From a virus, in the IMG/VR virus record IMGVR_UViG_3300031973_001259, positions 1 to 57,489 of that record: a DNA stretch of 57,489 bases. One strand, 5' to 3'. Positions 8,604 through 37,736 of the stretch are shown piece after piece. The notes beneath the pieces are model-generated. The model did not search any database, was not told where the DNA came from, and was given only the letters and a program-made list of their open reading frames with translations. Within the stretch, counting starts at the first letter, position 1, and every line of letters starts with the position of its first letter. Position numbers and translations under genes: made by a program.

Positions 8604-9241
8604 CAAAACCAATTGAGTGCCTTGCCGACAGTAGGATATTGTTCGCAGAAAATACTCTTAGCCTGAACTGCGATATCCATATGTTCTTTCTGAGTACCAT
8701 GAGCACTTCTAAGATCTATATAATGCACCCACGAGCGACATGAGCCTGTCATATAGATTCTTGTGGGGGTTGCTAAGGGAAGCACCATTCTAGCGCACTC
8801 CTTGGCGATTCCAGCGTCTAGCATGGTCTGATATAGATCCATACCTTCAGTAAAGTATTTCTGTATAGCAATCTCAAAAGTTTGTCTTTTAAATGCATCA
8901 ACATTGTCAAGACTATTTTGGCGATTCTTGTAATCTTGGCCACGCAATTCAGGAATAGGAATACTACTAGCTAACATAGAACTGTCAGCATATCTTTGTG
9001 AAAATTCCTGGAATGTAAAAGAACGGTGACGAAGCACTTGAGCTGCGATTGCCCTAGAAGTTTCAATTTCTAAAGTCATGTATGCTTGCTCAAACACAGA
9101 CCAATGTCCATGATTAATACAATACTTTAAGAGACCTTCAAAGCTAGGATTATCCTGATTATTAGGATTTGAAACCCTTGCTATGTACGCCATCGTCTCC
9201 TCTGGATTCGGAGTCGATTGAACTAGTCTCACTTTTTCCAT
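8603..9241 (-). CDS. thyX: Flavin-dependent thymidylate synthase ThyX
   Basis: A 212-residue ThyX, which makes dTMP from dUMP using FAD, NADPH and methylene-tetrahydrofolate. The ThyX motif RHRSFTFQEFSQRY is at residues 71-84, and a second conserved region (RMVLPLATPTRIYMTGSCRSW) lies in the C-terminal half. Length is normal for the family. It supplies thymidine nucleotides during phage DNA replication. The first 80 bp overlap a second open frame (9162-9383). Confidence 0.95.
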   Translation of the reverse strand: MEKVRLVQSTPNPEETMAYIARVSNPNNQDNPSFEGLLKYCINHGHWSVFEQAYMTLEIETSRAIAAQVLRHRSFTFQEFSQRYADSSMLASSIPIPELRGQDYKNRQNSLDNVDAFKRQTFEIAIQKYFTEGMDLYQTMLDAGIAKECARMVLPLATPTRIYMTGSCRSWVHYIDLRSAHGTQKEHMDIAVQAKSIFCEQYPTVGKALNWF

Positions 9242-9383
9242 GATTTCCTTTCAGTTGTTTTAATTTTAATCCCTTTTTAGCAACTTTCCTTGCTTTCTTC
9301 ATATACAAAAGTTCTTCATCTGTATATAACCAAGGTTGTTTAAGTGCTTCCTTGGTTAACCGAATTGTATCCTTCATCCGCAT
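9162..9383 (-). CDS. Small basic hypothetical protein overlapping thyX start
   Basis: A 73-residue frame starting MRMKDTIRLTKEALKQPWLY. The first 50 residues are helical and lysine-rich. The last 27 are encoded in the 80 bp shared with thyX in another frame and look disordered (Ser/Gly/Asp-rich). The start overlaps the preceding gene by 44 bp. The N-terminal part resembles short cyanophage proteins with a KEAL-x-LYTDEEL-YM pattern, so it is probably real, but the extended C-terminus may not be conserved. Confidence 0.5.
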   Translation of the reverse strand: MRMKDTIRLTKEALKQPWLYTDEELLYMKKARKVAKKGLKLKQLKGNHGKSETSSIDSESRGDDGVHSKGFKS

Positions 9384-9597
9384 AGTAGACCTCGTAGTAT
9401 TTTAGTAGTCCGTGAGTTATCATATTTCCTTGGGATACCCAATCATGAGCACATTCATATATGCTCTGGTTTGAATATTTAGGAGATCCATCTGGATTCA
9501 ACTCACTACCAAAATTCTTCAAAAGGATTGATAGAGCAGAGTTTCTAACTTGCATTTTTTCTGGAGTATATCTCCAGTCAGTCTGCATATCCGTCAT
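9340..9597 (-). CDS. Hypothetical protein (85 aa)
   Basis: An 85-residue protein; ATG at 9597 is chosen over an in-frame TTG at 9612. It begins MTDMQTDWRYTPEKMQVRNSA and contains SNQSIYECAHDWVSQGN near residue 45. It is compact, acidic to neutral and likely helical. It overlaps both neighbours, as is typical for the small-gene runs of cyanophages. No family recognised. Confidence 0.55.
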   Translation of the reverse strand: MTDMQTDWRYTPEKMQVRNSALSILLKNFGSELNPDGSPKYSNQSIYECAHDWVSQGNMITHGLLKYYEVYYADEGYNSVNQGST

Positions 9598-9748
9598 CGT
9601 CTCCGTCTCCAAAGTATTCTACTGGATCATCATAGTTTTCGCGCTTATCTTGTTGATAAGCTTCTGCATCGGAGAACACTTCAGATTCTAGTTCTTGCAC
9701 CAATGCTTTCATGGTCAAGACCAAACCCTTTAAAACTTGTCTGTCCAT
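9578..9748 (-). CDS. Small acidic hypothetical protein (56 aa)
   Basis: ATG at 9748 to TGA at 9578-9580. The product begins MDRQVLKGLVLTMKALVQEL, a helix, and ends in a strongly acidic tail (DPVEYFGDGDDDGYAD). It is the first gene after a consensus-like sigma-70 promoter whose -35 lies in the upstream terminator. No family recognised. Confidence 0.55.
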   Translation of the reverse strand: MDRQVLKGLVLTMKALVQELESEVFSDAEAYQQDKRENYDDPVEYFGDGDDDGYAD

Positions 9749-9768
9749 AAAAGAATGAGGTTTTGATC

Positions 9769-9797
9769 ATTATACACAAAAAAAGAGGACTCGTCAA
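9769..9797 (-). promoter_or_regulatory. Sigma-70 promoter embedded in a terminator
   Basis: Minus strand TTGACG (9797-9792) and TATAAT (9774-9769) with a 17-bp spacer. The -35 occupies the loop and first stem base of the terminator hairpin at 9782-9808, and the spacer includes the hairpin's 3' arm and T-run. It would drive the 56-, 85- and 73-residue genes and thyX. Confidence 0.7.
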
Positions 9798-9808
9798 GAG
9801 TCCTCTTT
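9782..9808 (-). terminator. Rho-independent terminator
   Basis: An 11-bp perfect stem (AAAGAGGACTC / GAGTCCTCTTT) with a 5-nt loop; the minus strand continues with Ts. It ends the short transcription unit that starts at the promoter at 10274. Confidence 0.85.
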
Positions 9809-9827
9809 AATTCGTCCAATCTAGTAC

Positions 9828-9971
9828 TCAGCTTTTTGATGCGAACTTACGCTCAACTTTAATACCACGATACATTAATTCGTGATTTTGACGAGCAGTT
9901 TGCTCCTCAATTACTTTTGCTTTGTACTGGTCTGCGTCATACTTGACGCCACGGTATGTGATTGTAGACAT
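9828..9971 (-). CDS. DUF4278-like small protein (47 aa)
   Basis: ATG at 9971 to TGA at 9828-9830, with AGGAG seven bases upstream of the start. The product carries the YRG-type repeats of DUF4278 proteins: TYRGVKYD at residues 5-12 and MYRGIKVER at 33-41. Such proteins occur widely in cyanobacteria and their phages; function is unknown. It sits directly upstream of the terminator at 9782. Confidence 0.65.
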   Translation of the reverse strand: MSTITYRGVKYDADQYKAKVIEEQTARQNHELMYRGIKVERKFASKS

Positions 9972-10041
9972 CGGTTTACTCCTGAAGTTGGGTGAAAATT
10001 AACCTTCTCAGCTTTCGCTGGATCCGTTTTTTCCCGTTCCT

Positions 10042-10209
10042 TCAGTCGTGTGCGTCCCAATACCACCGACACTCTGGTGCTGAGTCCTTAAGGGTCTCAA
10101 CCAACTCAACCTTAACTTGATTGCTAAGGTTTTGATTATTCTCAATCTTCAGCATGATAGCATCAGTTTGAGTACAGGTGAGTGTTGTGTAGAATAATAC
10201 TTCTAACAT
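10042..10209 (-). CDS. Small conserved protein with N-terminal hydrophobic segment (55 aa)
   Basis: ATG at 10209 to TGA at 10042-10044. The product begins MLEVLFYTTLTCTQTDAIM and ends APECRWYWDAHD. The short hydrophobic start followed by two cysteines (12 and 47) suggests an exported or membrane-associated small protein with one disulfide, and similar short sequences occur in marine picocyanobacteria and phages. It is transcribed from the consensus promoter at 10274 through a leader with a hairpin and a direct repeat. Confidence 0.6.
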   Translation of the reverse strand: MLEVLFYTTLTCTQTDAIMLKIENNQNLSNQVKVELVETLKDSAPECRWYWDAHD

Positions 10210-10210
10210 G

Positions 10211-10267
10211 GGATGAACGACTCCGTTCCGCGACTTACTTGCGTCCAGATTGCTCTGGATGAACGAC
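10211..10267 (-). repeat. Direct repeat and hairpin in mRNA leader
   Basis: GTCGTTCATCC occurs twice (minus strand 10267-10257 and 10221-10211). A CCAGA-GCAA-TCTGG hairpin partly overlaps the first copy. The first copy starts at the predicted transcription start and the second ends one base before the ATG. The arrangement suggests an RNA-level control element; no known riboswitch is recognised. Confidence 0.45.
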
Positions 10268-10273
10268 AGGTCT

Positions 10274-10303
10274 ATTATAGACCACTATCATTATTTATGT
10301 CAA
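10274..10303 (-). promoter_or_regulatory. Consensus sigma-70 early promoter
   Basis: Minus strand TTGACA (10303-10298), 18-bp spacer, TATAAT (10279-10274), flanked by a TATAATAGACC extension identical to that of the gp32 promoter. An ATAAATA sequence begins inside the -35 and extends into the spacer (10298-10292), so late use is also possible. Confidence 0.85.
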
Positions 10304-10323
10304 CCCTATAGGGCAAAAAAAAC

Positions 10324-10342
10324 CCGGAGATTTTTTCCCCGG
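10324..10342 (-). terminator. Rho-independent terminator
   Basis: A 7-bp stem (CCGGGGA / TCTCCGG on the minus strand, one G-U pair) with an A5 loop, followed by GTTTTTTTT. It lies downstream of the 90-residue gene and 20 bp upstream of the next promoter's -35. Confidence 0.8.
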
Positions 10343-10364
10343 ATTCTTGAAAATAAAAGTCAAA

Positions 10365-10637
10365 TTACTTTTTAGACTCTTTATTTTTACTTTTATACCC
10401 ATACATCTTTGGGTTGACTTTCCCATCAGTCTGAGTCCAACCCTTTAATCCATGCTTATATTCGTCGTAATAATAATCAAAAAGATCTACTTGTTTGTAG
10501 GATGAGGCAATATCATACTTTTTATGTCCCTCAGAGTCATAGTATTCGATTAAAAAAGCCGAGTATGGCAAAGATTTATCTTTTGCCAACTCGGGATCGC
10601 AATCCTTATGTAGGATGGTTACTCTTTCGTTGTTCAA
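10365..10637 (-). CDS. Hypothetical protein (90 aa), TTG start
   Basis: A 90-residue protein whose only usable start is TTG at 10637, which overlaps the previous gene's TGA (TTGA), so it is probably translationally coupled. It begins with NNERVTILHKDCDPE and ends in a lysine-rich tail (YKSKNKESKK). The middle is Tyr/Asp-rich (VDLFDYYYDEYKHG). No family recognised. It is the last gene before the terminator at 10324. Confidence 0.55.
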   Translation of the reverse strand: MNNERVTILHKDCDPELAKDKSLPYSAFLIEYYDSEGHKKYDIASSYKQVDLFDYYYDEYKHGLKGWTQTDGKVNPKMYGYKSKNKESKK

Positions 10638-11083
10638 CTACGATTACCCCACTCAACATCAGGATATGCTTCCTTGACGACATTGTGAGTGATACGATAC
10701 TTCTTACCCAAATTCTTATCCTTAACCAAGCAGATAATTTCTGCTTCATCGGGATGAAGAGACTCTAAAAGTTCAATGAACAAAGATTCTCTACGAGTCC
10801 TCTTAAGACTATCATTACCCCCCTTTACATAGTTATAAAGAGTTCTATACTGACTAGCTAATTTACTCTGAGATTCTACAGTAGGAGAATCATTTGGAGT
10901 GAATGGAACATCTCCTTCAGGAATGGCACTTATGACACTATCATCAAAGTTCCACACAAATAAAGAGACTAAAGCAGGAGATCTATGCTCTTTGAGCAGA
11001 TTGATTTTTGCTGCTTTAGTTTTTGCACTCGACACAGCTTGCAAAATTTCAGATTGGAGTGGATGTGGTGGTAATTTACTCAT
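10634..11083 (-). CDS. DUF6433-like protein
   Basis: A 149-residue protein; ATG at 11083 is preferred to an in-frame TTG three codons earlier. It resembles a family widespread in T4-like cyanophages (DUF6433, from memory): a helical N-terminus with KINLLKEHRSPALVSLFVW, a central IPEGDVPFTPND (about residues 55-66) and a C-terminal ESLHPDEAEIICLVKDK followed by VVKEAYPDV. No catalytic motif is visible. Function is unknown. Confidence 0.65.
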   Translation of the reverse strand: MSKLPPHPLQSEILQAVSSAKTKAAKINLLKEHRSPALVSLFVWNFDDSVISAIPEGDVPFTPNDSPTVESQSKLASQYRTLYNYVKGGNDSLKRTRRESLFIELLESLHPDEAEIICLVKDKNLGKKYRITHNVVKEAYPDVEWGNRS

Positions 11084-11100
11084 GATTTTCAAATTAATAA

Positions 11101-11325
11101 TTAGTCTTCGTCATCGGCATCGTCTTCATTAAAACGAAAGGCGATTAATGAGTCAGGAAGAATATTTCCATTCTCATCATACATTTCAGGGTGGAGAACT
11201 TGTTGTTGATCTGAACGATCATGATGGTACATCATATATTCTCTAAGTACCCATCCTAGCATACATCCAACGATTAATGCACCTATGACCAAGAACGATC
11301 CTGCAACTAAACTTACAGCTAGCAT
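11101..11325 (-). CDS. Small single-pass membrane protein
   Basis: A 74-residue protein with one membrane segment (about residues 4-29, LVAGSFLVIGALIVGCMLGW) followed by LREYMMYHHDRS and an acidic tail with HPEMYDENGNILPDSLIAFRFNEDD. The membrane helix plus HPEMYDENG pattern recurs in small cyanophage proteins. Function is unknown; an inner-membrane or virion-associated role cannot be distinguished. Confidence 0.65.
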   Translation of the reverse strand: MLAVSLVAGSFLVIGALIVGCMLGWVLREYMMYHHDRSDQQQVLHPEMYDENGNILPDSLIAFRFNEDDADDED

Positions 11326-11329
11326 TGTT

Positions 11330-11524
11330 TTACTCCGAGGAATTATTTTTTCTGATATCCAAATAAAAATTCAGATGTAGAACAATATCTCTCCTGAAGA
11401 AAGATAACATGTTACCGAACTTTATTTGAAAAGTTTTTGGTTGTTCTTTCTTTTTTCCTCCGCTGAGAATGAACTCCACCCCCCGATTTCCGTGGGTATC
11501 TTTATTTAGTTCTGGTTCAGACAA
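11330..11524 (-). CDS. Hypothetical protein, start uncertain
   Basis: The open frame has no early ATG. TTG at 11524, preceded by AAAGAG, is chosen because it overlaps the glutaredoxin stop by only 8 bp; a TTG at 11572 would add 16 residues and a 56-bp overlap. The product of about 64 residues contains NKDTHGNRGVEFILSG and FRRDIVLHLNFYLD, which have the look of a conserved small domain. No family recognised. Confidence 0.5.
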   Translation of the reverse strand: MSEPELNKDTHGNRGVEFILSGGKKKEQPKTFQIKFGNMLSFFRRDIVLHLNFYLDIRKNNSSE

Positions 11525-11747
11525 GATTCTGCTCTTTAAAATACTGTACTGTTTCAGCAGCTCCTCCAACAACTTTATCGTTGTGAACTACCTGAGGAAA
11601 ATACTGCGTATTAAATTCATTTTGAAATTCTTCAATAGTAAAATCCTGATTTAATGTGTAGACTACATGCTTTTGCTCTGTAATCTCCATGAGCTGTTTT
11701 ACTTGACGACAGTGACCACACCCTGGCATTGAGTAGATTGTAAACAT
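11517..11747 (-). CDS. Glutaredoxin-like protein
   Basis: A 76-residue glutaredoxin with the redox pair Cys10-Gly-His-Cys13 (MPGCGHC) just after the first strand, a TQYFPQVVHNDKVVGG stretch containing the cis-Pro and the conserved GG turn, and a short final helix. It would reduce phage or host ribonucleotide reductase or other disulfides. It is at the short end of the family. T4-like cyanophages often carry one or more such genes. Confidence 0.85.
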   Translation of the reverse strand: MFTIYSMPGCGHCRQVKQLMEITEQKHVVYTLNQDFTIEEFQNEFNTQYFPQVVHNDKVVGGAAETVQYFKEQNLV

Positions 11748-11784
11748 AACTTACTGCTTTACCTACAAGTAGATTTATAAAAAA

Positions 11785-12339
11785 TTAAATTGCTCTATTA
11801 TATCCCCGGAGCTGTGGGGGCACATGATCAACATTTGCAGAAATAACTATTCTTCTTCCCTCATGATTATCAGGAACCCAATGCGGTAAGCTAGCGTCAA
11901 ACACTAAAACTAATCCATTTTCTACAGGTCTACATGAGTCTCCAAAACAAATAGGGGCAGAGTTTTCCTCCACATCAATATAAAAAATGAAAGACAATGC
12001 TGAGGGAAAGTGACTATGATATTTTGTCCCTTCATTTGGACCATAATCCATAGCCCATAGATTAGTTACCTCATATATGCCGTTACTATAAAAGTACTGC
12101 TTGCCAATAGAGTTGGCAAACTCCTCAAAGTAATTTGCAATTGAAGAAAATCTAGAATCAACCTCATGAAGATTCCAAGCAGATCTCCAACTCGCTTCGA
12201 CATTACTATCAGAGACACTATCAGGGTTTTCTTTTTTATGATCTAAAATATTCTGTTTGAATTCATCCAACCTTTCAGTCCATCTAGACTCAAAAATTGG
12301 CATTTGAACAGAGACTTTACTAATTCCGATATCGGTCAT
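11785..12339 (-). CDS. 2-oxoglutarate/Fe(II) oxygenase-like protein
   Basis: A 184-residue protein; ATG at 12339 lies two bases past the upstream stop (an in-frame TTG precedes it). It looks like the double-stranded beta-helix oxygenase family common in cyanophages: TKYHSHFPSALSFIFYID near residue 105 gives candidate metal ligands, then LVLVFDASLPHWVP supplies the distal His and GRRIVISAN the cofactor-binding Arg. The usual H-x-D reads H-S-H, so activity is not certain. It is a paralogue of the next gene upstream. Confidence 0.65.
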   Translation of the reverse strand: MTDIGISKVSVQMPIFESRWTERLDEFKQNILDHKKENPDSVSDSNVEASWRSAWNLHEVDSRFSSIANYFEEFANSIGKQYFYSNGIYEVTNLWAMDYGPNEGTKYHSHFPSALSFIFYIDVEENSAPICFGDSCRPVENGLVLVFDASLPHWVPDNHEGRRIVISANVDHVPPQLRGYNRAI

Positions 12340-12341
12340 AA

Positions 12342-12902
12342 TCAAGATTCATCAATAATACTAATGTTCATAGCAACAGCAATCCTTCTCCCCTTCGTAG
12401 GCGGAACATGATGTGTAATGAATCCAGGAAACAAAACTAACATCCCATTCTTTACATGGACTTCCTTATCTTCCAATAAGATAGGAGCAACATCTTCTTC
12501 GACATCAATATAGTAAACGCAAGACCATGCTGATGGAAAGTGATCATGAGGGGTAGCTTGATCACCCTCCTCCATGACTACTGCCCATAAAGAAGCGAGT
12601 TTATACTTTGCATGAGTATGGAATACCTGCTCCGTAATGTAGTCTAGCACATATATGACATAATTGCCAATGTCCAAAAACCTATCATCAGTTTGATGTG
12701 TATCCCACTTAGTTAACCATGCCTTGACAGAATGGCCTGCGGTCTCATCTGTATCCAGATATTCTGGATCTTGAGATCTTTTCTCCAGAATTATATCTTT
12801 AAATCTATTAAATTCTTCTGGACCATTTTCAATAATAAAGGTGGGCAACTTAGTGACCACCTTATCATATTGAATAACCCTAGATGTAGGTCCGTTCTCC
12901 AT
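12342..12902 (-). CDS. 2-oxoglutarate/Fe(II) oxygenase-like protein
   Basis: A 186-residue paralogue of the gene at 11785. ATG at 12902 is preferred to a TTG at 12914; it overlaps the end of the protease-fibre gene by 23 bp. Shared elements are TPHDHFPSAWSCVYYIDVEE (candidate ligand His residues), MLVLFPGFITHHVPP (distal His) and GRRIAVAMNIS (Arg). Substrate is unknown; hydroxylation of a virion protein such as the adjacent fibre is one possibility. Confidence 0.65.
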   Translation of the reverse strand: MENGPTSRVIQYDKVVTKLPTFIIENGPEEFNRFKDIILEKRSQDPEYLDTDETAGHSVKAWLTKWDTHQTDDRFLDIGNYVIYVLDYITEQVFHTHAKYKLASLWAVVMEEGDQATPHDHFPSAWSCVYYIDVEEDVAPILLEDKEVHVKNGMLVLFPGFITHHVPPTKGRRIAVAMNISIIDES

Positions 12903-15900
12903 CTTGTCCACCAAGCGTCATAATACTAAGTTCGCCCAAGTCTTCAAGGGCAGGAATTCCATTATACACCCTAACGGTATATCCGTTAACTGTTCTGTCA
13001 GAAATTCGTAAATTAACGATACCACCTGGGAAAGCATTTGTACCACTTGCGATACCAATGACAGCATAGTCAGTATCATTCATTGCATCAGCAAAGTTAA
13101 CATTGTAGATACCAGTACCGGTTTGAACGATAGAGCTTACATTATGTGAGCGATCTCCAGGGACATAATCACTGTTACCAACACCAAGGTTAGTGTTCAT
13201 GTACCAAGAAGTGGCGCGACCTTCATAGAATTGAGTGTAAGTAGCAGTCTTGAGACCTACAAGATTCTTAAACTCCCCAACTCTGCTGACCTTATGGAAA
13301 TCATTATTAAACACTTGGATGGAGTTACCCATGCTTCCAAATTGTGTTCCAATACCAGCACCATAATACAAGAGTTGAGGAGTGTTCTCATCAATGAGAA
13401 TTTCAGTATAAGTTCCAGTCTCAGTTACATTATCAGAGTACTGATTCGGAGTTGTTGTACCAAATCCTACTGCAGAACCATCTGCAGCATAGTAGAACCT
13501 GATCGGATAGTTTACCTGCTGTGATGCATTCTCAAAGCGATAGGTTTGACCTACTTCAAATCTCAGGTAAGGAGATTCATAACCCTGAACATTGATAGAA
13601 CGATCAGATCCGATGCCATAATATCTGTGATCTGTTGTCTTTGTACCAATAGTAGTAGGTAGAGGCTTGTATGTGCCCTCAAACTGCGTATAAAGGTTCT
13701 TAGCGGTGTCTGCAGCGCCCGTTAAGGTGGAGAAACTAGAACTATTAGCAAAGAGTGCATTGTTTGCCTGAGAGGCGAGTCCAGCGAGCGTAGCGTAGGT
13801 AGCAATGCCAGCGACAATAGCCTCAGATGCAATACCTGCAAGTGTAGCACGAGGTGCCTCGTTAATCGTTACTGTAACGATACCAGCAGAGACTGGACTT
13901 ACATCGAGACCAGCATTAAAGTTGACTGTTCCTGCTGTACCGACTGCGGATCCAGAGTCTTGAATGATGACACCGGAACCAGAAGCAACAATATTAGTTA
14001 ACTGAGATCCGTCACCAATAAATCTCGGTGCAGTGATGTCATTATTAGATGTGATTGTAGCATCAACATCCAATTGAGAAGCTGTTCCTGCAGTTGTTGC
14101 ACTGTCAGCAGTATTTGCCGAGGTCGCTGTGGTTGCTACCGTAGCCAATCCAGCAACAGTTGCAAAGTCTGCTTGAGTTGCTTTAGGAACAGAAACCCCA
14201 GCGGCAAGACTATTAGCAGTTTGTGCAACACCTACGGTATCTGCAGCAGTAATAGTGACAATACCAGCAGAGATTTGAGATACTGTCAGATTCTGACCGA
14301 AGTTAATAGTAGCAGCAGTACCAACAGTACTATCATCATCCTTAATGATGACACCTGCACCAACACCAGTTACACCAGTAATACCAGAACCATCTCCAAA
14401 GAATGCAGTAGCAGTAATGTTACCGCTGGTATTAACATTGATGTTTGTACCAATACCAGAGGGACCAGGGTCCTGAGGTACAGAGTGAGCAACAAAAGTC
14501 AGATTGGGTTTAGAACCACGAACAATCAAGCTCTGACCCTTAGCAAGAGCAAGGTTGTCGATCTGAACATCCTGCAGAGGAGCCAGTCTTAAACCAAATA
14601 CCAGGTAGTCAGACTCTTGGAACTGTGCGAGACCACCAGAGGACAGACCAACTGACATGCCAACAGTAGAGTCAGAGTTCTGGTTTGTAGCATGAACTGT
14701 GACTAGGCTATCTTCTTGTGCTGTAAAAAACTCAAGGTTAGTATTGATCTGGAAAGGAGGATTGAATCCAAGAGTACCAGATCTTCTTCTACCATGAACC
14801 AGAGCAGAGTCAGGACCCAACTTATCAAACTTTCTAGTAGCAAAGGCAAGGAAAGAGATGTTAGGGTCGAAAGAAGATACGAAGATCTTATCTCCAGGTT
14901 TGATACCAACTTTTTCAATCAGTCTCGTACCACCTCTATCAAGGGGAATACCATAGGTAATATAGTCACTCCTTTTGAATCCAGGAGTACTAGAAATACC
15001 AATAGAGAATGTAGAACGGAAGTCGTTCTGGTTTGCAACACTAATGCTAACCTCAAGGAGGTTATCTGCCTCATATAACTGAACCGGCTCAACAACACCG
15101 TTCGTTAGTGTTGTTTTAATAGAAGCAAGTCTACCAACCTCAGCAAGAGCAGCAGAAGGAGTGGTGAAAGAAATTACTGCTGAGAAAGGAGATGTATGTT
15201 CAACACCAGATGTACCATCAGCGTTAGAAAGATGACGACATCTTACATAGAAGGTATGATTAGAGTTAAGTCCTTCAGGAATTATCTGAGATAAAGAAGT
15301 ATTATTGTTACCAACACTAGTAAATACTATAGTAGTAAATCCAATATCTTCAGCAACTTCAAACTCAACTGCTTTTAAAGTACCAGATACTGCTTCACTA
15401 TCAATAGAAACAAATGCACTGGATACAAGAGCAATACCAAATCTCTGATTTAGAGTAGTTCCACTGATAGGACTAATAATCGTAGGTGCCTGAACACCAG
15501 GAGCATTACCTAAGGTAGCGAATGAAACAATACCTGTAGAGTAATTAGAGGTATATGAAGTAAATGATGTGCCATCATCGTTAGACAGATGTCTTGTACG
15601 AGCATAGTGGGTCGTGAAACCTGCTAACTGAACATCAACTGTTTGGATTAGACTAGTATTATTATCTCCAGTAGATTCCCAGACAATAGAACTAAAGTCA
15701 GATGCAGTAGAGAGTTGCATCTCAACTGCTTTTAAAGTACCAGATACGGTAGTATCTCCAATAGCAACATAGCTACTAGATCTTATCTGTAAGCTTTCAG
15801 TACTAACACCAACATCATTATTGATTGGAGATTCAATAGTCGGTTCTGTAATACCAGCAGATTCTGTCAGAATACCAGAAGCAGTGTCAAGATAAACAAT

Positions 15901-17820
15901 CGCTACACTGCCACCAGATCCATCAGGACTTCTTTGGTTGAACTGACCAGTCCACCACTGAAAATTAGAATCACCATAGTCAGAAGTTGGAAACTGATCA
16001 AAGAGTAAATCGGAACCAGTCTGTGTACTACCAGCAGCAACAGTGGAAGAGTCCGTTGCACCAACACCAACACCCCGACCATAATCATTCAGCAACCACT
16101 GTCTCAGTTCCTGAGATGTAGCGTCAGGTTTTCTCTGCAAGTATAAAGCTACAAGACCAGTAACTACAGGAGCAGCAGCAGATGTACCGTTGAAGTTAGC
16201 GTCGAAATGAGTAGGATTATCATATCTCTGGAAGTCTGCATAAGGTCCACTAGGAAGACCAGCAGCTAGAGTGTCTTCAGCAGGTGCATAAATGTCAACA
16301 CCAGGACCACTATTAGAATATTCAGCTTTTCTTTCTTTGTAGCTAGATTCCACAAAGTCATCAAGAGCACCAACATTGATAACAGGATGATATCCAGTGG
16401 TCTCATCGACACCAATACCCTGAGGATTCATCCAATCCCTATGGGATGTTGGTGTCCTCTGTCCACCAAACTCAGCCCTTGGATCATTAGAACCAAAGTA
16501 TTGGTCGGCAACACCATTAAGTCTATGAGGATCTGTTCGTCCAATACCAATATACTGGTTGTTATTACCAGCAGCGGCAATCATAATTACACCGGCTTCG
16601 ATCATCTCAGCGCCAGCAGCATCAGTGGCGCTAGATCTAGATGAAGAAGACCATGATTTATAAGCACCTGATACTTGATTATTGAAACCAATAATCATAT
16701 CTTCAACACCAGCTGGAGCTCCAGCTGCGACACTGCTCATGTCAATGGTACTAGTAATACCAGTAAATTTGTATCTTACAGTTCCCGATGGGAGGACAGC
16801 AGCCTGATAACCCCAAGAACCATTAACAACCGTAGGATTTCTTACCCCAGTTTGAGTGTTTACTGGTTTATATTGATGGAAGAACTTAATGAGATCATAA
16901 GATGTCTCAATATCCATACCAACATTATCAGACACACAAGGCATTGCCCAGATGTTTGATTTAAATGCAAGACCAAAGTTCTTACCAGCAGCAAGAGATG
17001 CAGCTGCAGTACCGTGACCACTACCTAAGTTATTAGAACCTGCCGTGCCAATACCGATAGCACCATTTCTATTGTAACCAGGAGGAATAACTACTTCAGG
17101 AAGAAGAACGAACTCAGCAGATCTAGCATTGTTATCTTCCCACCATGCTTCAGCTCTAGCAGTATCAACACCTACTGATCCGTCTTCTAAGGTATAAACA
17201 AATCCACCACTATTAAAGTAACCAGGGTCAAGATAATATGGGAAGTCAAGAACAAGGTCAAGCACCCTACTTTTCCCACTATCATCCAAGAATTCTGGGT
17301 GTGATTGTAGAGTACCAGAGTCTTGAATAACAATATCTACATTTCTACCATCATATAAGAAGTTAAAGTTACCCTGCTTGGGTGCAATATCACCGACTAC
17401 ACCAGACCAAAAATCTCCGTTGGTTGCGATACCAGAAAGTCTAGGAAGTGCCCAGTTTGTTCTATTTAATTCTGCAGAAGTTGGATTTGAAGCTGGTGGA
17501 CCATTACTATCTAAATCTCTATAGATTTTAACATCACTATCAAACCTTAACGGCATTACCAGAGATGGATCTGGAAAGCTTTCTCTATTGTCCTTTAGTG
17601 AAAGTTCAATCCACTTAACATGAGGATGACGAGCAATCTCTTGAGCCTCGTCATCTGTTAACTCATAAGTACCACGAACTGCACTAATTGAGTGCTCATC
17701 GGTACAAGTAATTTTTCTGTCTGGAATTCCGTCCTGATTAGAGTCGATAGTGAGAGACCCATGGATCTCATTCCAATGATCAGCACTAGTAACTGCCAGG
17801 GTATATCTTTTAAGAGTCAT
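12880..17820 (-). CDS. Subtilisin-like protease fused to tail-fibre-like protein
   Basis: A 1646-residue protein. Residues about 45-75 resemble a subtilase I9-type propeptide (ELTDDEAQEIARHPHVKWIEL). Residues about 155-575 form a peptidase S8 domain with the full triad: Asp167 (VDIVIQDSG), His269 (GSGHGTAAA) and Ser547 (NGTSAAAP), plus the oxyanion Asn419 (AAAGNN). Two similar Fn3-like repeats follow (about 660-885, each with SGTLKAVE). The C-terminal half is phage-fibre-like, with two copies of an F-x-GDGS motif and Ala-rich repeats. No signal peptide is seen. It is probably a virion protein; the protease could process the fibre itself or attack host surface proteins. Confidence 0.85.
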   Translation of the reverse strand: MTLKRYTLAVTSADHWNEIHGSLTIDSNQDGIPDRKITCTDEHSISAVRGTYELTDDEAQEIARHPHVKWIELSLKDNRESFPDPSLVMPLRFDSDVKIYRDLDSNGPPASNPTSAELNRTNWALPRLSGIATNGDFWSGVVGDIAPKQGNFNFLYDGRNVDIVIQDSGTLQSHPEFLDDSGKSRVLDLVLDFPYYLDPGYFNSGGFVYTLEDGSVGVDTARAEAWWEDNNARSAEFVLLPEVVIPPGYNRNGAIGIGTAGSNNLGSGHGTAAASLAAGKNFGLAFKSNIWAMPCVSDNVGMDIETSYDLIKFFHQYKPVNTQTGVRNPTVVNGSWGYQAAVLPSGTVRYKFTGITSTIDMSSVAAGAPAGVEDMIIGFNNQVSGAYKSWSSSSRSSATDAAGAEMIEAGVIMIAAAGNNNQYIGIGRTDPHRLNGVADQYFGSNDPRAEFGGQRTPTSHRDWMNPQGIGVDETTGYHPVINVGALDDFVESSYKERKAEYSNSGPGVDIYAPAEDTLAAGLPSGPYADFQRYDNPTHFDANFNGTSAAAPVVTGLVALYLQRKPDATSQELRQWLLNDYGRGVGVGATDSSTVAAGSTQTGSDLLFDQFPTSDYGDSNFQWWTGQFNQRSPDGSGGSVAIVYLDTASGILTESAGITEPTIESPINNDVGVSTESLQIRSSSYVAIGDTTVSGTLKAVEMQLSTASDFSSIVWESTGDNNTSLIQTVDVQLAGFTTHYARTRHLSNDDGTSFTSYTSNYSTGIVSFATLGNAPGVQAPTIISPISGTTLNQRFGIALVSSAFVSIDSEAVSGTLKAVEFEVAEDIGFTTIVFTSVGNNNTSLSQIIPEGLNSNHTFYVRCRHLSNADGTSGVEHTSPFSAVISFTTPSAALAEVGRLASIKTTLTNGVVEPVQLYEADNLLEVSISVANQNDFRSTFSIGISSTPGFKRSDYITYGIPLDRGGTRLIEKVGIKPGDKIFVSSFDPNISFLAFATRKFDKLGPDSALVHGRRRSGTLGFNPPFQINTNLEFFTAQEDSLVTVHATNQNSDSTVGMSVGLSSGGLAQFQESDYLVFGLRLAPLQDVQIDNLALAKGQSLIVRGSKPNLTFVAHSVPQDPGPSGIGTNINVNTSGNITATAFFGDGSGITGVTGVGAGVIIKDDDSTVGTAATINFGQNLTVSQISAGIVTITAADTVGVAQTANSLAAGVSVPKATQADFATVAGLATVATTATSANTADSATTAGTASQLDVDATITSNNDITAPRFIGDGSQLTNIVASGSGVIIQDSGSAVGTAGTVNFNAGLDVSPVSAGIVTVTINEAPRATLAGIASEAIVAGIATYATLAGLASQANNALFANSSSFSTLTGAADTAKNLYTQFEGTYKPLPTTIGTKTTDHRYYGIGSDRSINVQGYESPYLRFEVGQTYRFENASQQVNYPIRFYYAADGSAVGFGTTTPNQYSDNVTETGTYTEILIDENTPQLLYYGAGIGTQFGSMGNSIQVFNNDFHKVSRVGEFKNLVGLKTATYTQFYEGRATSWYMNTNLGVGNSDYVPGDRSHNVSSIVQTGTGIYNVNFADAMNDTDYAVIGIASGTNAFPGGIVNLRISDRTVNGYTVRVYNGIPALEDLGELSIMTLGGQDGERTYI

Positions 17821-17852
17821 GCCTCAAAATCTATAGGTGAGCACCTTTTTTA

Positions 17853-17859
17853 TATTTAG
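17853..17859 (-). promoter_or_regulatory. Candidate late promoter for the protease-fibre gene
   Basis: CTAAATA on the minus strand lies about 33 bp upstream of the protease-fibre ATG, in the divergent gap with hldD. A TATAAT also occurs further upstream on the same strand but without a recognisable -35. One is expected because the gene begins a new minus-strand unit. Confidence 0.4.
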
Positions 17860-17893
17860 GTATGGTAGAATATATATTATAAAGAGCCTTACT

Positions 17894-18691
17894 ATGAATA
17901 TTGTTACTGGAGCGAAGGGATTCATTGGTGGACACTTTGCCAAAAACATGGATAGTGTGCTTGAAATTGATATTGATAACTGCTTTGACCTGTTGAATAA
18001 ATTTAATCGTTGGGAAGAGGTAAACACAATCATCCACATGGGTGCTCGCTCATTCACAACAGATAAAAATGTAGATTTAATTTACAAGTATAATATTGAT
18101 TATAGCATCAAGCTATTTGAAAAGGCAATTGAGTATGGTATTCCCGTCAAGTATGCCTCCTCTGCTTCCACTTATGGTCGTTGCATGTCAACTGATGGTA
18201 TTATTAATCCTCTAAACCACTACGCATTATCAAAAGCAACGGTTGATTACTGGGTGCAAGACAATATGCATAGATTCTCACACATCCAAGGATTTAAGTT
18301 CTTTAATGTATATGGTAGCGGTGAGGTCCACAAAGGAGAGCAGGCAAGCCTTGTAAGTAAGTTCAAGTGGCAATCTGCTACAGGCAAAGTTCATCCCTTT
18401 GAAGGATCAAATAAGGTACATAGAGATTATATCTGGGTAGGAGACATTGTAAATGTTGTGCTCACTAATAGTGCAGGTAGTGGTATCTATGACCTAGGAA
18501 CTGGTGCTGCAATTACTATTCAAGAAGTGGCAGATTTAGTTGCACAAAAAACCGAGGCTATGGTAGAGGAAATTCCTTTCCCACCAAACCTCGTTGGTAA
18601 GTATCAATACAATACTCAAGCAGATATGAATTGGTTAAACTATAAGTTCAAAACCGTTGCTGATTATATCAATTACCACGATGAATTCTGA
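17894..18691 (+). CDS. hldD: ADP-heptose 6-epimerase-like NAD-dependent epimerase
   Basis: A 265-residue short-chain epimerase. ATG at 17894 is chosen because the Rossmann motif TGAKGFIGGHF begins at residue 5; an upstream in-frame extension is unsupported. The catalytic Y110-x-x-x-K114 (HYALSKAT) and the HldD-type FFNVYG, then HKGEQAS stretch are present. HldD converts ADP-D-glycero- to ADP-L-glycero-D-manno-heptose. Length is below bacterial HldD (about 310). It is the only plus-strand gene among minus-strand neighbours and overlaps the cupin gene end-to-end by 23 bp. Confidence 0.8.
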   Translation: MNIVTGAKGFIGGHFAKNMDSVLEIDIDNCFDLLNKFNRWEEVNTIIHMGARSFTTDKNVDLIYKYNIDYSIKLFEKAIEYGIPVKYASSASTYGRCMSTDGIINPLNHYALSKATVDYWVQDNMHRFSHIQGFKFFNVYGSGEVHKGEQASLVSKFKWQSATGKVHPFEGSNKVHRDYIWVGDIVNVVLTNSAGSGIYDLGTGAAITIQEVADLVAQKTEAMVEEIPFPPNLVGKYQYNTQADMNWLNYKFKTVADYINYHDEF

Positions 18692-19028
18692 TTGAGTCTG
18701 AATCAAAGTGTTGCGTTGAGAATTCAAACAGTTCTGAGTCTTCCAACGCAATCATCTGATGCTTTAGCCCAGTAGGAACATAAAACTTATCTCCAGGTTC
18801 TAAGACTTTAAGTTCTGCTTTACTGAGATCTTCATCCCACCCAAAATACAATGAGATGAGACCACTCTGTAGGTAGAAGGTCTCATCTTTTATTTTATGG
18901 TAGTGCCACGAGCACCTTTTGTTCTTTTCCAGGAACAAAAGTTTACCACAGTACATTTCATTATTTACAATCCACTTTTCATAACCCCATCCTTTGGGGA
19001 CTACCTTAATTGAAGAAGTCTTTGTCAT
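18669..19028 (-). CDS. Cupin-fold protein, sugar-phosphate isomerase-like
   Basis: A 119-residue single-domain cupin; ATG at 19028 is used rather than an upstream TTG. Metal-binding motif 1 is SWHYHKIKDETFYLQSG (two His and a Glu) and motif 2 LEPGDKFYVPTGLKHQM. The opening KGWGYEKWIVNN resembles the type II mannose-6-phosphate isomerase cupin. In this cassette an isomerase or epimerase step on a sugar phosphate is plausible, but the substrate is not visible. It overlaps the HAD gene by 23 bp. Confidence 0.7.
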   Translation of the reverse strand: MTKTSSIKVVPKGWGYEKWIVNNEMYCGKLLFLEKNKRCSWHYHKIKDETFYLQSGLISLYFGWDEDLSKAELKVLEPGDKFYVPTGLKHQMIALEDSELFEFSTQHFDSDSIRIHRGN

Positions 19029-19329
19029 TAATTCCCTTGTCGTCAATGTAATAATCTGATGATGGTTTACCTAGATATAAATTATGAAACTTACACCCCC
19101 ACGACTCTAATTGATTCTTAGTAAATTCGTAGAACTCTTTCTCAGCTAACTCACGATTATTATCGTACCTACCCATGCCTCTGGCGGTAAGATAATTTAT
19201 AGTATGACCTTCATCATAAAGCTTATTTATTTTCTGTATACGATCCCATCTAGGGGTTGCGAGAGTATACCTAGATTCTCCCTTCCCAGCATAGCAAATT
19301 GTTTCATCGATATCAACAGTATATCTCAT
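19006..19329 (-). CDS. HAD-superfamily phosphatase-like protein
   Basis: A 107-residue HAD-like protein. Motif I is VDIDETIC (residues 5-12), motif II is in NYLTARGMGR (Thr/Arg), and the C-terminal motif is YYIDDKGIND. Small HAD proteins of this kind sit in capsule and nucleotide-sugar clusters. In ADP-heptose synthesis a GmhB-type phosphatase removes the 7-phosphate from heptose 1,7-bisphosphate; this gene is the only candidate here for that step. It is shorter than GmhB (about 190), so the match is tentative. It overlaps the kinase gene by 4 bp. Confidence 0.65.
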   Translation of the reverse strand: MRYTVDIDETICYAGKGESRYTLATPRWDRIQKINKLYDEGHTINYLTARGMGRYDNNRELAEKEFYEFTKNQLESWGCKFHNLYLGKPSSDYYIDDKGINDKDFFN

Positions 19330-20120
19330 ATATTTAAAATCCTATCAACATTATTCATAGTGAGAATATATGTACCAGGATTCTGTACTGCAATAGCAGC
19401 TGCCTTATTAGCAAAACAAATTGCTTCATCCATTGACGGAAGTTGAATGTAATAGAAAACTAAAGATGCAAGGAAAGTATCTCCAGCTCCAGTCACATCA
19501 AATGTCCGAACAAGATCTGCACATGGAAACTTTTTCTTATTCCATGCAGCACCCTCAGACCCCATGGTAACAATCATATTCGTAGAGTTTGGAATATGAT
19601 CTGGATCTAAACTCTCAAATTCTTTCTTGTTAATTTTATAGATGACATTACTGTGCTCCGTAGGAAGTATAGTTTTTTTCGTATCCACAAATATCTTAGT
19701 ATTAGGATACCTACCAGCAATGTCACTGATTGTTTTTGCGTCGGGAATATAACCTTTGTTATAGTCCGAAATGACAATAGCATCATATGTTTCATGCAAT
19801 AAAGCCATCTGCAGTTCAGATGGATGCAAGGGTTTTACATCAGGTTCATTATCTACTCGGACAATCTGTTGGTTAGATCTAATATCAATATATCTCGTCT
19901 TAGTGAGAGGTTCCTTATTAGTAAGAAAAGTTACATTAATACCAAGAGACTCTAGATTTGCATGAACATTAGCAGCCATGCCAGGTGCCTGTTCTTTTTG
20001 ACTTTGAATCAATATAGGAACTGGTGCCTCTGGGCTTAGTCTATTGCATGGACCATAGACCCATTCATCAGTACAACTATCCCCGATCAATAATACTTTG
20101 TATGGTCTTGCTAGTTGCAT
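19326..20120 (-). CDS. hldE: PfkB-family heptose kinase (HldE N-domain-like)
   Basis: A 264-residue ribokinase-fold kinase equivalent to the N-terminal domain of HldE, which phosphorylates D-glycero-D-manno-heptose 7-phosphate at O1. CNRLSPEAPVPIL (residues 25-37) is close to the HldE motif, and DVTGAGDTF with catalytic Asp214 is the PfkB signature. Bacterial HldE kinase domains are about 310 residues, so this one is compact. It overlaps the adenylyltransferase gene by 44 bp, as if a bifunctional HldE had been split in two in reversed order. Confidence 0.8.
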   Translation of the reverse strand: MQLARPYKVLLIGDSCTDEWVYGPCNRLSPEAPVPILIQSQKEQAPGMAANVHANLESLGINVTFLTNKEPLTKTRYIDIRSNQQIVRVDNEPDVKPLHPSELQMALLHETYDAIVISDYNKGYIPDAKTISDIAGRYPNTKIFVDTKKTILPTEHSNVIYKINKKEFESLDPDHIPNSTNMIVTMGSEGAAWNKKKFPCADLVRTFDVTGAGDTFLASLVFYYIQLPSMDEAICFANKAAAIAVQNPGTYILTMNNVDRILNI

Positions 20121-20481
20121 AATCTTCTAACCTAGGGAAAAAATGTAATTCAGTAGCGTACATAGATCCAATGACTGACTTTCCTTCCCAGTCAGATCCT
20201 ACTACCATTATATCAGGTGCAGTAACAGCTATGCACTTTTCTAGTTCTTCATCAGAACCAAATAGAACTACATGATCTACAGTCTTAAGACTTTGTAGCA
20301 TGTATGCTCTATCTTCGGCGTTATTTATTGGGCGAGAAGGACCTTTCTTTTCCCTTACCCGCTCATCACTATCAATACCAACAACTACTACATCACCCAT
20401 AGACTTTGCATACTCTAAGAGTTGCAAATGTCCAGAATGAAGAATATCAAAGGTTCCGTTTACAAAAACTTTTTTAGTCAT
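20077..20481 (-). CDS. Nucleotidyltransferase (HldE C-domain / TagD-like)
   Basis: A 134-residue cytidylyltransferase-like protein with the HxGH motif in FVNGTFDILHSGHLQLL (His15, His18) and a later ISTSS-like position reading YATSKTIQSII. In context it would be the heptose-1-phosphate adenylyltransferase half of HldE; a glycerol-3-phosphate cytidylyltransferase is the alternative. It overlaps the carbamoyltransferase by 8 bp and the kinase by 44 bp. Confidence 0.8.
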   Translation of the reverse strand: MTKKVFVNGTFDILHSGHLQLLEYAKSMGDVVVVGIDSDERVREKKGPSRPINNAEDRAYMLQSLKTVDHVVLFGSDEELEKCIAVTAPDIMVVGSDWEGKSVIGSMYATELHFFPRLEDYATSKTIQSIIDRG

Positions 20482-22267
20482 TAGATACCTGGATTATTTT
20501 ACCATATTCAGGAAGATAAAGATACTCGATATCAGAGTTAGCAAGAGTACGGCAAGCGTCGTCCAAGGTCTCCACCAGAGGTTCACCACCAAGATTAAAA
20601 GAGGTATTGAACAAAATCGGACAACCCGTAGCATCATAGAAGGTTTTGATGAGGTCATAGTAATTCTTGTTCTGTTCTTCAGTAACAGTTTGAATACGAC
20701 ATGTTCCGTCAACATGAATAATAGCTGGGATCTTTTCTTCAATACCAGGTTGACACTTAACAGCATACATCATGAAGGGAGTATCTTCCATCCCACGCAA
20801 ATCAAACCATTCGTCAGCATATTCAGCAAGAATAGATCCAGCAAAGGGACGGAAGTATTCACGATGCTTCACATTATTAACAAAATCTTTACCCTCAGGA
20901 TCACGGGGATCATAAAGAATAGAACGATTGCCGAGAGCACGAGGACCAGCTTCTGATTTTCCTTGGAAAAGTGCGACGATATTCTCATTAGAGATCAAAT
21001 TAATTACATCGTCATTGTTAGCATCACTTACAATACCACTATACTTGTCAGCAATATCAATAATCTGCTCAATAGTATAGTTATAGTCAGGACCATAGTA
21101 CAAATCAGTAATTCTAGAGGGAACTGTTGTTTGTTTCTTACCATTCAATTGATAATGTACATATAAGGCAGCTCCAATAGCAGTTCCACCATCATTACTG
21201 ACAGGTTCAACAAAGAGATTGATACCATCTTCTTTCAACTTATCAAGATACCAATAGTTTGCTACACAATTCAATCCATATCCACCAGAAAGAACAATAT
21301 TCTTTTTACCAGTGAGTTCAACTGCTTTATAGATTAGCTTCAAAACTGCTTCTTGCGTTTCAGTTTGCACTGCATAAGCAAAGTCTCTACGATTCTTAAG
21401 TTTGGTCAAATCGTCAGAATCATGATTATTTAAAAAAGGATATTCTTGAACATTAACATGCCCAGCATTAGGATAAGTAGGAACAATAACATTCCTATCT
21501 ACTGTTCCAACCTCTTTAAATAGAGTGGGGACTTCTTCGTTAGGTTCTCCATATGGAAATAATCCCATAGTTTTACCAGCCTCGATAGCATGCCAACCAC
21601 AGTATTGTGTAGCAGCTTCATATGCTTTTACGATACCTGCAGTTTCATCGAGAGTATAAGAGAAGAAACCAGTTTCACCAGGATAAGCCATTGCTGCTTC
21701 CATTTCAGGAACATAATTTGTGCAGCAGGGACCACGAGTTCCGAGATGTTTATATACAGTATTAATGTCGTTTGGGAACTTACAATTAAAAATAGTTTCA
21801 GTTTCCCATACAGTTTCAGTATGCCCCATTACATCAAACTGAATGAAGGTTCCGGCTCCATCAACTACAAGTGCAGCTGCTTCTTCAAATCCAGACCGAT
21901 AAAAAGCAGCAGCAGCATGAAGTTTATGGTGAACATTACCAACATCAACAACTTGAGGATGCATCTTGCTTGGATCTGGTTCTACATCTTTAATCAAACC
22001 AAGTTTTCTTGCCATCCCAACATAGATTGCCTCATTGCTATACTCAAGACTACCACAATCCCTCTCCATTAATTGAGTGTGACCAACAACAAGATAATCA
22101 AGTTTATCAGTGTACTTCTGTATCTCTAATAGTGAGGCAATAGGTCCGCCATCATATTTACGACGAGATAATCTCTCTTCCTCAACAGCAAAAATAAGCT
22201 CACCATCTTTCAGAAGACATACTCCAGCGTTGTGTCCGCGAGTGATACCAGCAATCCACTGTGTCAT
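20474..22267 (-). CDS. NodU/CmcH-type carbamoyltransferase
   Basis: A 597-residue O-carbamoyltransferase. The Kae1-like N-domain has GITRGHNAGVCLLKDGELIF and EEERLSRRKYDG, a metal-binding HHKLHAAAAFYRSGF (about residues 113-127), VVDGAGT, and the VLSGGYGLNCVANYW stretch (about 320). The YrdC-like C-domain contains EAGPRALGNRSIL and FNTSFNLGGEPLVET. Length is typical. These enzymes move carbamoyl from carbamoyl phosphate via carbamoyl-AMP to a sugar hydroxyl. Beside heptose genes the acceptor could be a heptose, as known for the Pseudomonas LPS core. Confidence 0.9.
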   Translation of the reverse strand: MTQWIAGITRGHNAGVCLLKDGELIFAVEEERLSRRKYDGGPIASLLEIQKYTDKLDYLVVGHTQLMERDCGSLEYSNEAIYVGMARKLGLIKDVEPDPSKMHPQVVDVGNVHHKLHAAAAFYRSGFEEAAALVVDGAGTFIQFDVMGHTETVWETETIFNCKFPNDINTVYKHLGTRGPCCTNYVPEMEAAMAYPGETGFFSYTLDETAGIVKAYEAATQYCGWHAIEAGKTMGLFPYGEPNEEVPTLFKEVGTVDRNVIVPTYPNAGHVNVQEYPFLNNHDSDDLTKLKNRRDFAYAVQTETQEAVLKLIYKAVELTGKKNIVLSGGYGLNCVANYWYLDKLKEDGINLFVEPVSNDGGTAIGAALYVHYQLNGKKQTTVPSRITDLYYGPDYNYTIEQIIDIADKYSGIVSDANNDDVINLISNENIVALFQGKSEAGPRALGNRSILYDPRDPEGKDFVNNVKHREYFRPFAGSILAEYADEWFDLRGMEDTPFMMYAVKCQPGIEEKIPAIIHVDGTCRIQTVTEEQNKNYYDLIKTFYDATGCPILFNTSFNLGGEPLVETLDDACRTLANSDIEYLYLPEYGKIIQVSND

Positions 22268-24086: not shown

Positions 24087-24968
24087 TCAGGACCAAGTTG
24101 TAACAACAACCAGTCCACCACCACCCCAGTCACCCCAGCATTGACTGCCTTGGGTAGATCCAGAGAATCCACCGCCACCAGGGAACAACGAAGGTGAAGA
24201 ACAACATCCTCTACTGTTACCATAGGAGCAGCGAGTTACACCAAAGTTTCTATCTGTGGACCAAGGACCAACTGGAGAAGATGCAACTGCAAAGTCGTCC
24301 GAGTGACAACTATACGATTTAAATTCACCACCGGACAAACCACAAATGTAGAATTCGTTTTCTGGGTTTGCTGTATCAGGCTTAGATTGTCCATCAGGCC
24401 AAGAAGCAGAGCAAGCGTTATAACAATTGTTTCTTTGTGCTTGCTTTGCACAGGCATAACAAGAAGCAACTGTACACTTTTGGTTAGAGTAAGATCCGCC
24501 CTGCATACAGAAGGTTCCTAATCCACCACCTAAGACGAAAGAAGGGCACCCATAGAATCCACAACCGGTTCTACCGTGACAACAACCACAGCAGGAACAC
24601 CTACTAGTAGATCCCGAACAAATTGTAAACTGAGTAGATCCAGCGACAAAATGACCACAGTTAGCGTACTGCATCTTGGTGGCATAACCACCACCACCGC
24701 CACCCATACCAGCACCGTTGCCGCAGCAACGACCACCTGCACCTGATCCACCACCAGATACAATTTCAAATTGAATAGTGGTTACTTTTTCTGGTACGGT
24801 CCAGAGGTAACAACATCCACCATTACATGGGACATTATGACAACAGTTATAATAGAAGCTTCGACAAACATTACCCGTAGATACGCCCGTTACTTTAGTT
24901 GGACCTACAGTTCCGTTAATAAATGCATCATCAGCATCAATTTTTTTATAGGTCTGATAATCCGCCAT
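24087..24968 (-). CDS. Cysteine-rich glycine-rich tail adhesin, copy 1
   Basis: A 293-residue protein with 29 cysteines, including CC, CxCC and CGCCHGRTGCGFYGC clusters. Residues about 57-80 (WTVPEKVTTIQFEIVSGGGSG) match the glycine-rich fold of phage fibre-tip proteins, and GGGGG loops and FPGGGGFSG recur to the C-terminal VVTTWS. It is a paralogue of the gene at 25748, with every cysteine conserved. A virion tip adhesin stabilised by disulfides or metal is the best guess. It lacks a signal peptide, so oxidation would have to occur after lysis or with help. Confidence 0.75.
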   Translation of the reverse strand: MADYQTYKKIDADDAFINGTVGPTKVTGVSTGNVCRSFYYNCCHNVPCNGGCCYLWTVPEKVTTIQFEIVSGGGSGAGGRCCGNGAGMGGGGGGYATKMQYANCGHFVAGSTQFTICSGSTSRCSCCGCCHGRTGCGFYGCPSFVLGGGLGTFCMQGGSYSNQKCTVASCYACAKQAQRNNCYNACSASWPDGQSKPDTANPENEFYICGLSGGEFKSYSCHSDDFAVASSPVGPWSTDRNFGVTRCSYGNSRGCCSSPSLFPGGGGFSGSTQGSQCWGDWGGGGLVVVTTWS

Positions 24969-25741: not shown

Positions 25742-25748
25742 TATTTAT
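25742..25748 (-). promoter_or_regulatory. T4-type late promoter fused to adhesin copy 2 stop
   Basis: The minus strand reads TGATAAATA, where TGA ends adhesin copy 2 and ATAAATA is the promoter element, about 25 bp upstream of the chaperone-like gene. Confidence 0.6.
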
Positions 25749-35206: not shown

Positions 35207-35230
35207 TTTAATAAGAAAATACTTATTAAA
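35207..35230 (-). terminator. Weak AT-rich hairpin at psbD end
   Basis: A 9-bp inverted repeat TTTAATAAG / CTTATTAAA with a 6-nt loop, overlapping the psbD stop. It contains few G-C pairs and is followed by ATTTC, so it may protect the 3' end rather than terminate. Confidence 0.35.
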
Positions 35231-37551: not shown

Positions 37552-37572
37552 TGTTTTGAACAAAAAAGTAAG

Positions 37573-37702: not shown

Positions 37703-37736
37703 TATTTATATTAGCACTTCCTCACATATCTGTCAA
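37703..37736 (-). promoter_or_regulatory. Dual early and late promoter for psbA
   Basis: Minus strand TTGACA (37736-37731), 17-bp spacer, TAATAT (37713-37708), overlapped by an exact T4 late element TATAAATA (37710-37703). Host sigma-70 and the phage late machinery could both start psbA from almost the same place. The -35 lies inside the halogenase gene's 3' end. Confidence 0.8.

Follow-up and report, generated by a model that had tools for sequence, protein, structure and literature searches.

Enzymes carried on the adsorption apparatus of phages are familiar from the tail-spike polysaccharide depolymerases, and most of the enzymes known to be borne by phage virions have sugars or peptidoglycan as their target. 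To our knowledge, little has been established about which receptors and surface barriers marine Synechococcus and Prochlorococcus present. Peptidases of the S8 (subtilisin-like) family have been annotated in cyanophages since P-SSM2, whose record carries a PF00082 note, and an S8 peptidase in P-HM1 and P-HM2 was mentioned by Sullivan et al. 2010 (PMC3037559); in the literature that we searched, we found neither a functional study of this cyanophage family nor a described phage fibre protease. Within that literature, the protease-fibre fusion, the gene-coupling statistics and the C-terminal tail motif reported here appear to be new.

The window analysed, the whole 57,489-nucleotide stretch of IMG/VR record IMGVR_UViG_3300031973_001259, comes from a T4-like cyanophage fragment, judged by its gene content (tail tube, baseplate wedge, ssDNA-binding protein, PhoH, thymidylate synthase and photosystem II D1). 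At 12880..17820, on the minus strand (as are all parts of this gene given below), it carries an open reading frame with an ATG start, which encodes an S8 protease joined to a tail fibre, 1646 residues in all. We think it rather probable that this is a virion-borne subtilase: a late-expressed tail fibre with an N-terminal, proteinase-K-like S8 arm that would cut a protein of the host surface. The same full-length S8-fibre ORF recurs, complete, in more than 12 IMG/VR contigs, and we therefore rejected the idea that the fusion is an assembly error.

Two overlapping 2OG-Fe(II) oxygenase genes (11785-12914, minus strand) lie directly downstream and have a 35-base overlap with the S8-fibre gene; genes like these also occur near the fibre clusters of several relatives. 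Sugar genes are found around the fibre (17837-22267 and 41935-42888), encoding a nucleotide-sugar epimerase, a phosphoheptose isomerase, a Nol-like carbamoyltransferase and a glycosyltransferase, the last of which begins a long same-strand gene series. Elsewhere in the window are two phrog_4205 paralogues with no assigned function (24087-24968 and 25748-26626, minus strand), flanking a tail-fibre-assembly-like gene; a second large tail-fibre protein of 1222 residues (26714-30382, minus strand; phrog_9851); two neighbouring photosystem II D1-family genes (35226-36281 and 36475-37563, minus strand), probably psbA and psbD; and a tryptophan-halogenase-family gene (37722-38834, minus strand), one of which is annotated in S-SCSM1 too.

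The S8A (proteinase-K-like) catalytic domain spans residues 87-643 (15892..17562), as defined by PF00082 and a structural match, and Pfam Peptidase_S8 scores 71 bits here, its cut-off being 21.8. An earlier note, made from the letters of the window, had read an S8 domain here, and we confirmed both the domain and its catalytic Asp167 (codon 17320..17322), His269 (17014..17016) and Ser547 (16180..16182, in a GTSA motif), together with the oxyanion-hole Asn419 (16564..16566). These four residues are invariant in 154/154 of the family members that cover them all, a set which includes near-copies; the remaining rows are truncated, apart from that of a very distant Agrobacterium phage, which has an alignment gap at the Asn position. 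The residues are kept in relatives down to about 25% identity, and where a second, tandem S8 copy occurs it retains every catalytic residue that it covers. With zero losses, tandem copies included, a dead protease was rejected; such invariance is strong evidence, at the level of sequence, that catalysis is used, and the S8 enzyme of the window is predicted to be apparently active. In PHROGs, residues 3-583 match phrog_9158, whose function is not assigned, at 8e-77, and a phage protease family is also matched. A subtilase match in PADLOC was set aside as generic S8 similarity, as was an NCBIfam mycosin match (42.8 bits, where the cut-off is 278.75). In one scan of bacterial and archaeal genomes, the best cellular match among the matches listed was 28%, a figure that speaks neither for nor against a recent acquisition of the gene from a host.

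An AlphaFold2 model of residues 1-650 has a mean pLDDT of 89.8, and its S8 part aligns (VIA-align) with a Z of 32.7 to the Meiothermus keratinase 5wsl and of 32.4 to aqualysin I. The S8 model matches PCSK9 as well, and subtilase folds can act as binders, so that the domain might be conceived as a receptor binder like PCSK9 for which no catalysis is needed. We consider this very improbable, because Asp, His, Asn and Ser are never lost, either in the 154 relatives or in the tandem copies.

Ahead of the enzyme, residues 1-86 (17563..17820; boundary by model and alignment) form an I9-like prodomain. Its modelled elements (E4-10, H13-24, E39-41, E49-54, H56-63, E68-73) follow the order beta-alpha-beta-beta-alpha-beta, as in I9, and mature PDB chains of the proteinase K/aqualysin type begin aligning at model residue 87-91. 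The Pfam I9 profile matches 8 of 59 family members, with a best E of 0.013, and gives 13.5 bits for the window protein against a cut-off of 21.2; a prodomain profile run against the PDB reached a subtilase prodomain chain at E 1.9, ranked after unrelated chains. Thus, of the I9-like propeptide proposed in the earlier note, fold order and placement hold, the I9 sequence match is sub-threshold, and ‘I9-like’ rather than ‘I9’ is the appropriate name. The pLDDT falls to 65 at residues 81-90, where the model leads us to expect the self-cleavage site, and the enzyme probably removes its prodomain by cutting itself. Within the prodomain (residues 46-58, 17647-17685), Ser46, Arg49 and Glu58 are invariant across 59 diverse relatives; prodomains normally vary in sequence, and such invariance is unusual. 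At the other end of the enzyme, the predicted structure of the junction has only a short linker, of about 10 residues, between the S8 domain and the Fn3-like domain that follows it; a link so short would favour a tether that lasts.

Beyond this linker lie two tandem Fn3-like domains (residues 654-891, 15148..15861), recognised by their 43% identity to one another and by structural matches at Z 9-12 (VIA-align), in a part of the model where pLDDT is mostly 65-90. The region is without a Pfam Fn3 match; as two tandem beta sandwiches, the Fn3-like repeats that had been read from the sequence are upheld. Two duplicated beta domains follow (residues 898-1117, 14470..15129), with 28% mutual identity (E 4e-8) and a weak match to a P-SSM2 tail fibre; the model is weak past the Fn3 part, and the fold of residues 898-1135 is of low confidence. 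Matches to three tail-fibre families of PHROGs then run through the C-terminal half: the fibre stalk (residues 1126-1365, 13726..14445; phrog_6942, tail fibre), which has a counterpart in the fibre genes adjoining standalone S8 genes; a tail-fibre domain (residues 1374-1527, 13240..13701; phrog_30742, tail fiber protein), which by eye may be cupredoxin-like; and a conserved fibre C-terminus (residues 1528-1646, 12883..13239), where phrog_11355, tail fiber protein, matches residues 1556-1599. Of the phage-fibre GDGS repeats claimed before, the motifs themselves are present in the stalk, and there are only two, at residues 1142 and 1269.

The motif CTAAATA, known as the core of cyanophage late promoters, stands at 17853..17859 on the minus strand, 32 nt before the ATG. 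Each of the 26 fused relatives has it upstream, including some that share only about 48% protein identity, and the bases flanking it vary among them. CTAAATA is not over-represented in the window as a whole, and so the weight of this candidate late promoter, which the earlier note had already recorded, rests on the conservation of the motif and not on its presence. A sigma-70 and terminator scan of the window gave results near chance. No signal peptide is visible, as had been noted, and the in-frame stop immediately preceding the ATG rules out an N-terminal extension or a hidden upstream signal peptide. A late-promoter motif would also suit a protease that is released at lysis to degrade host envelope or debris, competing phages or defence proteins, the fibre being only a stalk or oligomerisation domain. 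The physical fusion to full fibre modules and the signal peptide not being seen both speak against lysis release, as do relatives that adjoin gp9-like connectors and the virion mark on the S-SCSM1 relative (both described below), and we judge it quite improbable.

Our tblastn search of phage records matched 42 of them, in about 32 of which the match included the S8 part, and IMG/VR searches gave 75 and then 80 loci, on contigs that are partly shared. Only a minority of relatives are fused to a fibre: separate S8 proteins of 561-760 residues account for 104 of the 151 complete ORFs. In 106/110 distinct loci with separate or shorter S8 genes, a same-strand upstream gene ends no more than 70 nt away (mostly no more than 13 nt), and tail fibre and the gp9-like baseplate wedge-tail fibre connector are the commonest PHROG families among these upstream neighbours. 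The gp9-like connector leads the downstream neighbours too (21/55), and GDGS-type repeats are present in 42/106 upstream neighbours versus 7/809 other ORFs of the same loci. Tail association of the S8 family is, in our view, well supported. In a subgroup of seven contigs, two S8 genes are adjacent or a few genes apart, and both are catalytically intact where covered.

A short C-terminal tail, of the pattern Gly-hydrophobic-x-hydrophobic, closes most of the S8 proteins that are separate or fused to a lectin. This pattern is seen in 78/110 S8 proteins versus 105/1560 other ORFs, counts which are descriptive and not a test, the pattern having been defined after viewing the sequences and the rows being related. 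In standalone S8 proteins the tail takes the form GhxhxGhxhxx, and two proteins with a lectin insertion have kept it. It may be a docking or assembly tail, which the fibre would replace in the window protein.

The tight coupling of S8 with fibre genes, like the late-promoter motif, could also be explained by an assembly or maturation protease that cuts the fibre, or a neighbouring baseplate or fibre protein, inside the infected cell; both proteases of phage assembly and fibre chaperones that cleave themselves are known, for example RaK2 gp530 (PMC10253068). Known fibre self-cleavage, however, relies on C-terminal chaperones, the prodomain here is of the extracellular type, S8 evolves faster than its would-be fibre substrate, and it behaves as an accessory gene whose partners change (lectin, Ig, esterase-like, fibre). 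An assembly role thus seems to us unlikely. Processing of the fibre by its own protease, which the earlier note had offered as one option, is disfavoured since most relatives are separate polypeptides.

Our S8 tree was a quick IQ-TREE run, with SH-aLRT as its sole support measure. In it, 16 rows, the long fibre fusions, group as a single clade (support 99) nested among separate S8 genes; the sole shorter row within this clade ends at a contig end. The sequences suggest that the window-type protease-fibre fusion arose once, from within the standalone S8 genes. Independent fusions are seen in S-SCSM1 gp144 (S8 with a Laminin_G_3 lectin), in S-TIM54 (S8 joined to both an esterase-like region and Ig domains, in a protein of 2140 residues at 8995-15414 of its record), in ACG-2014h (S8 with a weak plastocyanin-like, that is cupredoxin-like, match) and in Agrobacterium phage Atu_ph07 (S8 with Ig-like repeats). 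The common theme of these partners is surface-binding or surface-attacking modules. We compared only nine pairs of close fused relatives, some with dS near saturation. Their dN/dS values mostly lie at 0.14-0.28 in S8 and at 0.03-0.47 in Fn3, and taken together these two parts are mostly at 0.14-0.4; the beta domains (0.01-0.08) and the fibre end (residues 1501-1646, 0.01-0.13) are mostly under 0.1. The faster change of S8 and Fn3 would fit an S8 arm that faces the host, and such figures would also follow from weaker constraint.

For S-SCSM1, 45 virion proteins were reported by mass spectrometry (PMC9602691), and its gp144 bears the depositors' ‘(virion protein)’ mark in its record. The mark stands on 47 S-SCSM1 features, versus the 45 of the paper, and these include the three non-structural proteins named there; the mark is thus no proof for any single protein, and gp144 is likely, not certain, to be in the S-SCSM1 virion. 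Our reading of a protease on the tail, which the earlier note had also put forward, draws on this virion-marked relative together with the fibre and gp9-like linkage, the invariant catalytic residues and the repeated module fusions.

The earlier note had also suggested the S-layer, or giant surface proteins such as SwmB, as a possible target. The phages that carry relatives were isolated on Synechococcus WH7803, WH8102, WH8109, CB0101 and MW02, and also on Prochlorococcus NATL1A/NATL2A. SwmA and SwmB were described for WH8102 in an eight-strain exoproteome study (PMC4949707). With hosts so varied, SwmB is unlikely to be the common substrate, and an S-layer/SwmB target is unsupported as a general one; it is a possible substrate for phages of WH8102-like hosts.

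We propose that the prodomain would fold and cap the enzyme inside the infected cell, that the enzyme would then cut off its own prodomain between about residues 80 and 90, and that the mature enzyme would be carried on the tail. On contact, the S8 arm might cut a protein at the host surface or in its extracellular layer, or else trim the phage's receptor, easing access or release; we infer both the substrate and the early timing in infection of this step. Such host-surface proteolysis would parallel the action of polysaccharide depolymerases on sugars. In most relatives the separate enzyme would probably be docked to the fibre or baseplate via its conserved C-terminal tail, and in the window protein covalent fusion would take the place of docking. 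That S8 genes stand beside tail-fibre genes in many ocean viruses suggests that host-surface proteins may be cut, as other phages cut sugars. More tentatively, and with our confidence a little short of even, cyanophage tails might bear an entire class of enzymes that act in adsorption by cutting proteins, with an S8 cassette either docked or repeatedly fused, whose action would be a regular infection step in many T4-like cyanophages. If true, a protease built into a fibre would suggest that surface proteins serve as a barrier or a receptor, and would give a function to a gene family that has been annotated without one since P-SSM2; the idea would be directly testable in the cultured phages S-T4, Sf-CH8, S-SCSM1, S-SSM7 and P-SSM2.

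Considering known systems, the family phrog_9158/T4-GC 292 (P-SSM2 gp297 and S-SSM7 gp232) has the same S8 and prodomain, is annotated with PF00082 and adjoins tail-fibre genes; its members are separate proteins, mostly of 561-760 residues and mostly with the short C-terminal tail, and lack Fn3 and fibre modules. The closest cultured relatives, the standalone S8 proteins of S-T4 and Sf-CH8, are 50-54% identical and are encoded directly after a GDGS-type fibre gene, but are not fused to it. S-SCSM1 gp144 (YP_010669921.1) shares the N-terminal S8, the further C-terminal modules and a virion mark; it has a Laminin_G_3/ConA-like lectin in place of Fn3 and fibre, an S8 that is about 28% identical, and a separate place of fusion on the tree. 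In S-TIM54, UYE97265.1 likewise has S8 within a large polypeptide, labelled a virion structural protein, but with the esterase-like region before S8 and the Ig domains after it. Aqualysin I, proteinase K and ProteinT share the fold, the Asp-His-Ser order and a prodomain ahead of the catalytic domain, whereas they are secreted by signal peptide, have a core of about 280 residues versus about 550 here, and carry no fibre. Tail-spike polysaccharide depolymerases, which cut sugars, often have beta-helix folds and have no homology to S8, are alike by their working only, as enzymes borne on the adsorption apparatus.
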